Below are positions 22,528 to 31,749 of a DNA stretch of 40,375 nt, piece by piece. The notes beneath the pieces are model-generated. The model had not been told where the DNA came from. It was given only the letters and a program-made list of their open reading frames with translations, and ran no database searches. Where the stretch lies: positions 1 to 40,375 of the forward strand of contig JAJZDM010000023.1 in NCBI GenBank assembly GCA_021806005.1, written 5' to 3'. Numbering within the stretch: position 1 is the first letter of the stretch; the number at the start of each line of letters is the position of its first letter. Made by a program: the position numbers and the translations under genes. This stretch comes from Acidobacteriota bacterium (GTDB taxonomy: Bacteria; Acidobacteriota; Terriglobia; Terriglobales; Acidobacteriaceae).

Positions 22528-22581
22528 GGATCGAACCGCCGACGGGGGCCTTTTCAGGGCCGCGTGCGAACCACGGAGCTA
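22528..22581 (-). pseudogene. Decayed 3'-half copy of tRNA-Phe
   Basis: A gapless match to the true tRNA-Phe, 114 bases further on, covers the T arm, variable loop and anticodon arm including the GAA anticodon loop (first 37-38 bases with two mismatches). The match breaks down at the 5' side of the anticodon stem; the D arm is only faintly visible and the acceptor stem is absent. It cannot fold as a tRNA. Confidence 0.75.
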
Positions 22582-22626: not shown

Positions 22627-22701
22627 TGGTGGCCAGAGACGGGATCGAACCGCCGACGCCGGCCTTTTCAGGGCCGCGCTCTACCACTGAGCTATCTGGC
22701 C
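22627..22701 (-). tRNA. tRNA-Phe (GAA)
   Basis: 75 bases including encoded CCA. The 7-bp acceptor stem (GGCCAGA paired with TCTGGCC), D arm (AGCTCAGTGGTAGAGC), anticodon stem CGGCC/GGCCG with loop CTGAAAA (anticodon GAA) and T arm with GGTTCGATCCC are all intact. Discriminator A. Confidence 0.96.
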
Positions 22702-28100: not shown

Positions 28101-28853
28101 ATGTCCAGCCTGATGATTCCGGCCATGGTCGATGAGCTCCCGATTGCGGCAGCCTCCGCAGCTGCGTCTGTCTGTGCTGGACTCACCCTGACCTACGCCG
28201 CGCTCAGCCCGACCTCTCAGTTTTTTGGCAGCACGATCCTGGCCGGCGATGACCCGGCTGAAGCGGCTCTTACCTACGACGACGGCCCCAACGACGTGGC
28301 CACCGATGCGCTTCTGGACGTCCTGGCACGTTACCACGTTCGGGCCACGTTTTTCATGATCGGCCGGTTCGTTCGGGAGCGCCCGGAGATCGTGCGCCGC
28401 GTGCACGCTGCCGGGCACCTGATCGGCAACCATACGCAGACGCATCCCTGGCTGAGCTTTCAGTCCTCCCGGGTGATACGCCAGCAACTGCGCGATTGCA
28501 ATCGCGCGCTGGAGGACACCCTCGGAGCTCCGGTACGTTACTTCCGCCCACCGCATGGGGCGCGCCGTCCGATGGTCTTCCAGGCCGCGCGAGAGTTGGG
28601 ATTGAAGCTGGTGCAGTGGAACGCCATGGGCTATGACTGGCAGCCCATCCCCGGCGACCAGATTGTGACGCATGTCGATCGCGGGCTGAAGCGGGCTCGA
28701 CAACAGCGCAAGGGGGCCAACATCCTGCTGCATGACGGGCATCAGCAGGGGATCGGAGCAGACCGCCGCGCGACGGTGCAGGCTACCGAGGAACTCCTGC
28801 GGCGGTTTCACCGGGAGGGCGTGAGGACGGTGACGGTGGATGCCTGGGGGTAG
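28101..28853 (+). CDS. Polysaccharide deacetylase (NodB domain)
   Basis: A 250-residue carbohydrate esterase 4-type enzyme expected to remove N- or O-acetyl groups from a cell-wall or exported polysaccharide. The NodB motifs are present: TYDDGPN (Asp60-Asp61), metal ligands His111 and His115 in HTQTHP, RPPHG (149-153) and LLHDGH near the end. The N-terminus has a hydrophobic segment (about 14-38), so it may be membrane-anchored or exported. It starts 2 bases after bcp. A link to EPS modification is possible but not shown by location. Confidence 0.87.
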   Translation: MSSLMIPAMVDELPIAAASAAASVCAGLTLTYAALSPTSQFFGSTILAGDDPAEAALTYDDGPNDVATDALLDVLARYHVRATFFMIGRFVRERPEIVRRVHAAGHLIGNHTQTHPWLSFQSSRVIRQQLRDCNRALEDTLGAPVRYFRPPHGARRPMVFQAARELGLKLVQWNAMGYDWQPIPGDQIVTHVDRGLKRARQQRKGANILLHDGHQQGIGADRRATVQATEELLRRFHREGVRTVTVDAWG

Positions 28854-28862
28854 GGGTGATTT

Positions 28863-28929
28863 GTGCCGGAGGCATCCTGCGGGCCCACACCTCGAAAGGC
28901 GAAAGAACGAGATGTGGGGCACCCGGCAC
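28863..28929. repeat. Palindrome copy 2 between convergent genes
   Basis: The inner arms CCCACACCTCG (28884-28894) and CGAGATGTGGG (28908-28918) pair with one mismatch. Outer 7-base arms GTGCCGG (28863-28869) and CCGGCAC (28923-28929) are perfect. The inner part shares GAGATGTGGGG and the loop style with the palindrome at 8713-8745. It sits between the convergent deacetylase and membrane-protein genes. Confidence 0.7.
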
Positions 28930-29027: not shown

Positions 29028-30929
29028 TCATCTCCTCACCGTCTGACAGGGCGCATCCGGAAGGTTCTGCGTGGCCAGGCTGAACGAGTATGTCTGACGC
29101 CATTGCCAGGCTGCGCTGGGCTTCAGCGCCATCGCCAAAACCGCTGAGGTGGAGCCTCGGTTTGCATATAGCCTGGAGAAGTCCACTGGCTTTTCAACCA
29201 GTGGCGATAACATGAACCAACTGCTTCCCATCCCGGGAATATAGCGGAAGCTGCGCTGCTCACCCGAGGCCATGGTGAGGTTGATCACCACCCTCCCAGG
29301 TTTGTAAAGAAGGCCCCAGATCCGGCCAAGAAAGGTTGGCGTCAACGTCACGCGTGCGTAGATGGGCTCTCCGGCTCTCGGGACGGTGAGGTTGGAGTTG
29401 AACGTCCCCCGGCCTTGTGCCACCTCTTCCAATAGCGGCGTGTGGGGAGCGTCGGGGCAGCGTTGCAGAAGCAGGTAGCCGGTTGGAAGTCCGATAGGCG
29501 CGTAGTCCGCCAGGAAGACGGGCCAGCTCAAGCCGTCTGCCAGGCTGGGGAGTTGATGATCCGTCGGTTCAATATTCAAAAGAATGTACTGTGGCGCTCC
29601 CGTCTGAAGCAGGTGTCGTTGATTCAACTCTGCCAGCCAGGGAGTGTAGACCGAGTAGCTCTGAAAGACCGGCCGAGGGTTCCAGTGATCTCCGGATGCG
29701 ATCAGATCGGATTGATTGAAGGAATAGATATCCACGCTGCCATCCAGTTGTGGAAGTGAGTGCTGGCGGGCCATCTCCTGCAAGTGATCGCGGTAGGCAA
29801 TGGTGTAAGTCTCAGGGTGCTGGATCTGCGTTGAGATGCCGTGGAACAAGCCTTTATAGGTTGTTTCAACCTGAATGATCAGGGCGCTGCTGGTCGAATT
29901 CGCGTGATTGCTGTTGATATGAACAAAGGCAAACATGGTAATCAACAATGGCCAACCCGCGCCTCTGGACAAGACGCCGGCGTAGAGCAAGGCGGCCAGC
30001 ATGATGGACTGCGCGAAGATCGTCAGGTGCTCATCTTCCCTGACAAACCCTTCTTTGAAGGCTAAAAAATAAAATACAAAAAATATCGCGAGTAAAGCCC
30101 ATCGCGACTCCCTGAACCTTGAGGGCAAGAAGGCGATTCCAAGAAGCACGCTGACTGAGGCAAGCACCCCGAACAAAGCATCCGTATGACTGTCCGTATA
30201 TAAGGACATCGCGCCTGAATAGCCGAGAATGATCGGCACACTGCGTGCAAAGAATAAGGGAAGCCAAGCTATGGGCTGCCTGGCAAATGTCCACCAGGCA
30301 AAGGTGGACAGCGTGGGGACGATGAGGGCAAGCGGCGCAAGCGGGCGCGCCACCATCCTGAGCCGGAGAAAGGAGAGGATGATGGCAACGGTGCAACTGA
30401 TGAGCAACGTCGTCTTGATGAGCGGCAGCAAGCCCAAAGGCGCGAAGATGGTTGCCAGCAGTGCGATCATCTTCGGATCCTGTTTCTGGATGCGACCGGT
30501 GTGAGCCAGCACCTCAAGGGCGAGCACAGCCAACAGCGGAATTCCAAACAAGGTTGCGTCTGTCGGGGGCGTTAGTGCAAGAAACGCTGCATAGGCAACG
30601 AACCAGCCGGTTCTTCGCCAAAATACGACCGTAAGCATTGCCAGCGTCGTCAGTACCAGGAAGATAGAACCGGCGAGCATGAGCCCATAGGTGTGAGGTG
30701 TGTAGATGCGCGTGGCAATCGAGGCGTAGGGTCCATAGGTAAACAGGATGTCTCGCCCGATGACCATCCTTTGCTCAATCGCCTGGCACATGGCGAAGGC
30801 CCAGGAGCAATCCAGCCCTCTGCAGGGAAGGTAAGGCGTAGCGGGAACATAGACAGCCACAAGGGTTACTGCCGCGAAGGCCCAGGTTAAGGACCGGTAC
30901 AGCGTCCGCCAACTCATCCATTTCATCAT
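29028..30929 (-). CDS. Large polytopic membrane protein, unknown function
   Basis: A 633-residue protein. The first half (about 10-345) has some nine to eleven hydrophobic helices with an early extracytoplasmic loop carrying CRGLDC; the second half is a soluble domain with about one late hydrophobic patch. The general plan is that of GT-C-type glycosyltransferases or O-antigen-ligase-like proteins, but I see no decisive motif and would not assign an activity. Base composition is lower in GC than the neighbours, with an A/T-rich patch at about 30061-30085, which may signal transfer from another source. It is convergent with the deacetylase gene; no operon partner. Confidence 0.75.
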   Translation of the reverse strand: MMKWMSWRTLYRSLTWAFAAVTLVAVYVPATPYLPCRGLDCSWAFAMCQAIEQRMVIGRDILFTYGPYASIATRIYTPHTYGLMLAGSIFLVLTTLAMLTVVFWRRTGWFVAYAAFLALTPPTDATLFGIPLLAVLALEVLAHTGRIQKQDPKMIALLATIFAPLGLLPLIKTTLLISCTVAIILSFLRLRMVARPLAPLALIVPTLSTFAWWTFARQPIAWLPLFFARSVPIILGYSGAMSLYTDSHTDALFGVLASVSVLLGIAFLPSRFRESRWALLAIFFVFYFLAFKEGFVREDEHLTIFAQSIMLAALLYAGVLSRGAGWPLLITMFAFVHINSNHANSTSSALIIQVETTYKGLFHGISTQIQHPETYTIAYRDHLQEMARQHSLPQLDGSVDIYSFNQSDLIASGDHWNPRPVFQSYSVYTPWLAELNQRHLLQTGAPQYILLNIEPTDHQLPSLADGLSWPVFLADYAPIGLPTGYLLLQRCPDAPHTPLLEEVAQGRGTFNSNLTVPRAGEPIYARVTLTPTFLGRIWGLLYKPGRVVINLTMASGEQRSFRYIPGMGSSWFMLSPLVEKPVDFSRLYANRGSTSAVLAMALKPSAAWQWRQTYSFSLATQNLPDAPCQTVRR

Positions 30930-31476
30930 TTGCGGCCTCTTTGCATCACAAAAAGATGAAGATCTGCCTGACAGGCAAATCCAAAGGTGCTATTTCAGGT
31001 CGCTAAAGATGACCGGCGGGAGTTGTTACCCCTGGAGGCGCTCATTTCAACCGAGGCGCCTGCTTCAAGGATCTGGATGCGTGGGACAAACCAGCCGGTT
31101 TCGTCGCCCACGGGACGGGGAGATGGGGAAGTTGATCGGAGACCAGCGGTTGCCCGGTGAGACAATCGCCAGACTCCTCCGTCAGTCAAACGCCAGATGC
31201 TGCCTGGGAGGCCTCCAAGAGGCACAGCCAGTTGATGCTGAACTCATCGCTCTGCGGTCAGTGGGAAGAATTCTATGCCTGTCGGAAGAAGAATGCCAGA
31301 TGCGAGGAGGGTATACCAGCGGATAGCAACGAGCGAGGGTGAGCCTATTGGGGGGAAGCTTGGGCGGGTGATGGAAGGCCGTTCAGTTGGTCAGTGTGCT
31401 CTTTTGCTCCGGCCTGCGGCAGCGAGGAAGGGACTGCGGCCAGATTGTTTATGGTCGGGCTGGGGAGTGGCCATGG
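30930..31476. other. Intergenic region upstream of the membrane-protein gene
   Basis: No gene is supported. A - frame at 30995-31225 ends with protein-like composition but has no recognisable family, ribosome binding site or start; it could be a decayed gene end. The right part leads into the tRNA-Arg fragment array. Confidence 0.4.
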
Positions 31477-31514
31477 AGATTCGAACTTCTGACTTACAGC
31501 TTCGGAGGCTGCCG
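31477..31514 (-). pseudogene. tRNA-Arg fragment, copy 1 (T and anticodon arms only)
   Basis: Matches the functional tRNA-Arg from the anticodon stem to the T arm with one base change (T for C at the variable loop). The acceptor 3' strand and CCA are missing, being replaced by unrelated sequence. Not foldable as tRNA. Confidence 0.75.
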
Positions 31515-31568
31515 GGCCAGAGCGCCGGGGGGGGGGGCAGCCGGGAAGATGGGGTGGAGAGGGAAGGA

Positions 31569-31620
31569 TGGTGCGCCCGAGAAGATTCGAACTTCTGACT
31601 TACAGCTTCGGAGGCTGCCG
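31569..31620 (-). pseudogene. tRNA-Arg fragment, copy 2 (complete 3' half with CCA)
   Basis: Identical to bases 31673-31724 of the functional tRNA region except for one C/T change. It keeps CCA, the acceptor 3' strand, T arm, variable loop and anticodon arm. It stops exactly at the 5' edge of the anticodon stem, where unrelated GC-rich sequence begins. Confidence 0.8.
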
Positions 31621-31672
31621 GGCCAGAGCGCCGGGTGGCGGCAGCCGGGAAGATGGGGTGGAGAGGGAAGGA

Positions 31673-31749
31673 TGGTGCGCCCGAGAAGATTCGAACTTCT
31701 GACCTACAGCTTCGGAGGCTGCCGCTCTATCCAGCTGAGCTACGGGCGC
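31673..31749 (-). tRNA. tRNA-Arg (CCG)
   Basis: 77 bases including encoded CCA. Acceptor stem GCGCCCG/CGGGCGC, D arm AGCTCAGCTGGATAGAGC, anticodon stem GCAGC/GCTGT with loop CTCCGAA (anticodon CCG) and T arm AGAAGTTCGAATCTTCT are intact. Discriminator A. Confidence 0.96.

Follow-up and report, generated by a model that had tools for sequence, protein, structure and literature searches.

How did two pieces of a tRNA gene come to lie in tandem behind the functional gene? The question is raised by the window (the whole stretch of 40,375 nucleotides analysed here), which belongs to a 212-contig genome of the Acidobacteriaceae (G000) and in which the tRNA-Arg(CCG) gene is followed, downstream and on the same minus strand, by two broken copies of itself at steps of 104 (proximal copy) and 106 (distal copy) bases (Table 1). 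The array is real: the letters and the alignment agree on both copies and both steps, as stated in the first-pass annotation, which was made from the letters of the window and had proposed that the copies may be attachment scars of mobile elements, with tandem duplication or a processed small RNA as alternatives. That annotation took both copies for 3' halves, which is correct for the proximal one; the distal copy is not a full 3' half, because it is also cut on the 3' side, at position 63 of the tRNA. The chance origin of its 38-nt match is negligible, and the two copies have in common one base that the functional gene lacks. The common spacer behind the broken copies was likewise borne out, the two spacers of G000 matching except around a run of C.

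Table 1 Features of the tRNA-Arg(CCG) array, of its surroundings and of the tRNA-Phe locus (positions in the window unless another locus is named).
Feature	Position	Strand	Basis or remark
Functional tRNA-Arg(CCG)	31673..31749	-	ARAGORN; Rfam RF00005, 70.3 bits
Spacer 1 (trailer; part weakly like the dispersed repeat, p = 0.03; site of the lost tRNA 5' half)	31621..31672	-	52 nt
Proximal copy, tRNA-Arg(CCG) positions 26-77	31569..31620	-	Alignment, 51/52 identical
Spacer 2, as spacer 1 except around the run of C	31515..31568	-	54 nt
Distal copy, tRNA-Arg(CCG) positions 26-63, both ends cut	31477..31514	-	1 difference in 38, score 35.5
Dispersed repeat beyond the array	31403..31439	-	Part matches the G016 and G017 spacers
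633-aa protein, no Pfam match	29028..30929	-	In the genus 2/28 genomes (G000, G017), both at the tRNA-Arg(CCG) locus
Hairpin segment, after the copy in G016, 2.5 kb from the array in G000	28868..28923	-	Comparison
Polysaccharide deacetylase, usual downstream neighbour of tRNA-Arg(CCG) in the genus	28101..28853	+	Annotation, genus comparison
Functional tRNA-Phe(GAA)	22627..22701	-	ARAGORN; Rfam
Decayed copy of tRNA-Phe positions 8-60, at a step of about 113 bases	22528..22581	-	Alignment
Fragments of tRNA-Phe displaced from the gene, integrase match in the interval	L221; G004:C7; G024:C64		Three congeners

The proximal copy together with its spacer scores 30.4 bits (threshold 29) with the Rfam tRNA model, in an end-to-end match that lacks most of the D arm, and is absent from the default Rfam tRNA scan of the window; the Rfam search of the array returned nothing beyond tRNA matches. 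Partial downstream copies are rare in this genome: among its 44 distinct tRNA genes, a search of the 0.8-1 kb downstream found them for two, Arg(CCG) (score 49.5) and Phe(GAA) (score 35.0), and for none of the other 42 (next best score 12).

The tRNA-Arg(CCG) locus was recovered from G000 and 26 of its 27 congeners (G025 gave no close match to it), and a copy is present in five of these 27 loci, the window included (G000, G015, G016, G017 and G018). Together with G014, where no tRNA-Arg(CCG) copy is recognisable, the five genomes form one six-species clade with a support of 1.000, in a single FastTree run on neighbouring proteins that covered 26 of the 28 genomes (all but G019 and G025), some of the data being incomplete (531 residues for G017). 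Copy number within the clade ranges from 0 to 2; an array that is identical in every relative, which the first-pass annotation had named as evidence against attachment scars, is not what the genus carries. G016 has one copy identical at 52/52 positions, at the same step as in G000 and followed by a hairpin segment, and a second copy, truncated as judged by eye, before the deacetylase gene; G015 has one copy 3' of a similar hairpin segment, with a different spacer and at a contig end; the G018 copy is identical at 48/52 positions, and the G017 copy has an altered CCA. The tandem pattern in its exact letters was found in three of the 398 family genomes (G000, G016, G017) and in two records of the named collection, both of them MAGs; that collection may not include the record of the window itself.

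Of the 21 loci that do not belong to the clade, 16 have the deacetylase gene at most about 170 bases from the tRNA start; it lies 2-5 kb away in G001, G022 and G023 and was not found in G019 and G024. The 633-aa gene of G000 is located between the array and the hairpin segment, and its protein has matches in nine of the 398 family genomes, G000 and G017 among them. In G017 (locus L038) a transposase-like gene, apparently broken, was seen by eye between the copy and the 633-aa gene. No integrase gene lies between tRNA-Arg(CCG) and the copies, the 52- and 54-nt spacers being gene-free, and none was found beyond the array, where the three ORFs tested up to the deacetylase gene were without Pfam match; inspection by eye of the ORFs of five relatives in which the neighbours are displaced or altered also brought no integrase to notice.

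Whether a whole gene or a half was copied can be read from the bases that precede each copy. The 40 bases before the copy were aligned, anchored at their end, to the 5' part of the tRNA and compared with shuffles for 11 flanks. What looks like a decayed 5' half of tRNA-Arg was found in G018 (p = 0.0005) and G017 (p = 0.001), so that the copies of these two species appear to be the remains of a whole gene; taken alone, it is unrecognisable before the two G000 copies (p = 0.18 and 0.11) and before those of G016 (0.24) and G015 (0.66). The remaining flanks gave p = 0.014 (the family genome G215) and 0.19-0.54 (four viral flanks). G000, G016, G017 and G018 taken together gave p = 0.0004, a value that is too optimistic because the species are related and the shuffling preserved nothing but base composition. 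When the 44 tRNAs are ranked by their 5' halves, Arg(CCG) comes first, tied with Arg(ACG), whose 5' half is identical. The ancestral copy probably had both the D loop and the 3' side of the D stem, because bases of the former are retained in G018 and the latter in G017. The sharp break at the anticodon stem on which the first-pass annotation relied is present in G000 and G016 and is preceded in G017 and G018 by the apparent remains of a 5' half, and we read it as a late state of some lineages rather than as the original breakpoint.

In part, the spacers repeat local sequence. A dispersed GC-rich repeat with the core CTTCCTCGCTGCCGCAGGC occurs at six places in G000 (up to 2 mismatches), including the one after the array, and stretches similar to it were seen in several congeners. 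Part of this repeat matches the spacer of G016 (p = 0.0002) and of G017 (p = 0.0004, 17/18 bases), and more weakly those of G000 (p = 0.03) and G018 (p = 0.07). In G017 (p = 0.0005) and G016 (p = 0.0015), not in G018 (p = 0.17), the first 40 bases behind the copy are similar to the first 40 behind the tRNA; in G000 the last copy, the distal one, is cut. A tandemly duplicated unit made of the tRNA, its trailer and part of the repeat directly explains both the spacer match and the repeated trailer. The repeated trailer was also considered as an argument against attachment scars and dropped, since three of the four islands tested repeat their trailers as well (at the displaced fragments of G215, G004 and G024, not of G010).

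The 3' half has changed less than the spacer. In four of the five pairs compared (out of the six possible among G000, G016, G017 and G018) the spacer carries significantly more differences: 13/54 vs 1/52 between G000 and G016 (p = 0.0009), 18/56 vs 4/52 between G000 and G017 (p = 0.002), 25/59 vs 5/52 between G000 and G018 (p = 0.0001) and 24/60 vs 4/52 between G016 and G018 (p = 0.0001); the fifth pair, G016 and G017, gave 9/53 vs 3/52, which is not significant (p = 0.12). Gene conversion from the functional tRNA would be the simplest cause of this conservation.

We favour, with a probability of roughly 55%, the reading that the copies are relics of a tandem duplication of tRNA-Arg(CCG) and its trailer that lost their 5' half and were amplified again in the genome of the window. 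The shared ancestry of the copies, the decayed 5' half (two lineages), the repeated trailer (two lineages) and the uneven conservation are supported by the tests above, and the order of events that we infer would be the following. In the ancestor of the six-species clade, tRNA-Arg(CCG), its trailer and part of the dispersed repeat would have been duplicated in tandem as a unit of about 104 bp; small changes that differed between lineages would then have removed the 5' half of the spare copy, its 3' half being kept near that of the functional gene, perhaps by gene conversion from this neighbour 104 bp away or by constraint; in G000 the decayed unit would have been duplicated once more, and an insertion or deletion beside the 633-aa gene would have truncated the distal end. 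Tandem duplication accounts for the remains of a 5' half, for the repeat sequence inside the spacer and for the missing integrase, and it also explains why the steps are nearly equal at two tRNAs (104 and about 113 bases). Against it stand the flanks of G000, G015 and G016, in which no 5' half is recognisable alone, the negative trailer and repeat results of G018, and the island-like boundary at position 26. Further, the other spacer of the G015 copy requires a second event; duplication and drift alone leave the likeness of the 3' halves unexplained, so that conversion has to be assumed, and the base common to the two G000 copies is one that the tRNA lacks; and the displaced fragments of G215 and G011, described below, also keep 5' parts, just as islands also repeat trailers.

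The second tRNA with a copy lies 9 kb from the array. The tRNA-Phe copy is present in G015 too, with traces of a 5' half in both genomes (p = 0.015 in G000, 0.0125 in G015) and, in G015, a trailer that is repeated (p = 0.012), and a process similar to that at tRNA-Arg probably affected tRNA-Phe. The copy is absent from G014, where the tRNA-Phe trailer agrees with the sequence after the G015 copy in 36 of 40 columns (score 32), as would be left by loss of the copy through recombination between repeats. An AACTTAG-like motif after tRNA-Phe was seen by eye in many congeners.

The attachment scars of the first-pass annotation are a possible, clearly less probable account, in which elements with a tyrosine integrase would have entered the anticodon arm of tRNA-Arg(CCG) repeatedly and left displaced 3' halves, tandem amplification following; the spacer, and perhaps the 633-aa gene that sits between array and hairpin segment, would be the remnant of a shrunken element. 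A displaced tRNA fragment in the same orientation, by which integrative elements are recognised, does lie downstream of tRNA-Arg(CCG), the distal copy being without its 3' end, and elements at this tRNA exist in relatives. Searching IMG/VR with the pattern of the 3' half gave seven stretches on six contigs (L064 and L065 being one contig): three contain full tRNA genes (L065, L067, L068), two viral contigs match tRNA-Arg(CCG) itself exactly over positions 29-77 (L063, L069), and L066 carries a variant, with a Phage_integrase gene near the tRNA piece in each of L063, L066 and L069. The L069 integrase has matches (E up to 1e-30) in 37 of the 398 family genomes; one of the 30 such loci fetched, that of G215, adjoins a tRNA-Arg(CCG) fragment, and a scan of the named genomes for its relatives gave 18 stretches, none of them confirmed. 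G215 holds, behind gcvPB like the tRNA of the window, an 18.3-kb element between tRNA-Arg(CCG) and a copy of positions 22-77 (L108, 1013-19418), with a terminase, a C5 methylase and a tyrosine integrase whose ORF ends about 130 bp ahead of that copy. Next to the distal fragment there is another, decayed piece covering positions 2-40, a match that none of 5000 shuffles equalled (first 20 positions alone, p = 0.04). Judging from the sequences of L063, L069 and G215, tRNA-Arg(CCG) is an attachment site in relatives.

The tRNA-Phe gene has a comparable record within the genus: among the integrase matches listed, G004, G010 and G024 show tRNA, PF00589 match and displaced fragment in this order, with fragments starting at positions 25 (G004, where the integrase match contains a stop), 27 (G010) and 23 (G024). 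Other tRNA-Phe fragments start at 25 (G012) and 13 (G011), the latter with a partly decayed 5' half (p = 0.0005). G000 itself has six integrase matches, four of them among the matches listed. Sequence evidence thus points to insertion of family elements at the anticodon arms of tRNA-Arg(CCG) and tRNA-Phe; the boundary of the array (position 26) resembles those of the islands, and both tRNAs that bear copies in the window (2 of 44) appear to be targeted in relatives. Attachment scars would account for the intact 3' half and for the boundary at once, and it is because of this resemblance and of the two shared targets that we keep them as a tentative second choice.

They were moved from first choice because the copies of sister species show a decayed 5' half and the spacer matches the dispersed repeat. 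The lack of a Pfam match in the three ORFs beyond the array and the local sequence repeated in the spacers also count against them, and the copy's own 5' junction, used as a pattern, was found in 0 viral contigs (a 16-base match to the spacer occurs in 19). Displaced tRNA-Arg fragments in exact letters were found in three of the 398 family genomes (G016, G017, G215), with an integrase in G215, in a search that excludes copies with a G at one position and so misses those of the window, G015 and G018. What survives of the scar proposal is thus a tRNA targeted in relatives and an island-like boundary, set against the missing integrase, the decayed 5' half of two sister species and the local sequence in the spacers; the tandem duplication with a shared trailer that the first-pass annotation had offered beside it fits better.

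Retention of the copies for a function, as tRNA-like RNAs without D arm or as a small RNA processed from the tRNA transcript, seems improbable. The better conservation of the 3' half speaks for it, as do the 28.9-33.7 bits that the copies of five genomes score against the Rfam tRNA model. We infer a lack of function mainly because copy number runs from none to two within the clade and the copies decay: G014 has none recognisable, G018 has changed at 4 of 52 positions, the CCA of G017 is altered, the second G016 copy looks truncated and the distal copy of G000 is without acceptor strand. Folding of the proximal copy gave no stability beyond that of shuffles (z = -0.8), a comparison that says little because the functional tRNA itself reaches only -1.4, and promoter and terminator scans, from which almost nothing is expected, found nothing. 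It would be a long shot that selection acts on the 3' half of the spare copies as tRNA-Arg(CCG) minigenes without D arm or as decoy landing sites for integrases; if the decoys were real, spare landing sites would draw integrases off the functional tRNA. An artefact of assembling a short-read metagenome bin, which the suspicious run of C in spacer 2 and the MAG origin of the two named-collection records might suggest, is very improbable, given that the 104-base unit was also assembled in G016 and a near-equal one in G017, each with differences of its own, and that the two copies of G000 differ in spacer and length.

The value of the locus lies mainly in a warning, and it offers a small test case: short repeats of a tRNA 3' half look like attachment scars, but at this locus the comparison of sister species points to duplicated, half-decayed tRNA genes. 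Tandem tRNA duplication with pseudogene formation yields a same-strand unit with its trailer, limited to a clade, varying in copy number and decaying. The array is like this in each of these respects and unlike it in that decay begins with the 5' half, and the 3' half is still nearly identical in three of the four lineages compared. The distal repeats of E. coli tyrT, source of the rtT RNA, resemble the array in being repeated in tandem behind a tRNA gene and in each including a part of the tRNA 3' end; their units are longer and their tRNA part shorter, and the Rfam matches of the array are to tRNA only. Literature searches on tyrT/rtT and tRNA pseudogene arrays gave nothing on point, and a search of open-access text found no paper joining Acidobacteria, prophage, tRNA-Arg and integration site. 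Class A of Islander (PMC4383910) comprises genomic islands in tRNA genes with an anticodon-centred attachment site, candidates below 2 kb being rejected. The array differs from these in having no integrase found and a step of about 104 bp, which is under 2 kb, and further in the decayed 5' half of sister species and the part of the dispersed repeat in its spacer; it shares with these islands, of which relatives of the window's genome have examples (G215, and at tRNA-Phe G004, G010 and G024), a displaced 3' tRNA fragment in the same orientation downstream of the intact gene, with a boundary near the anticodon stem.
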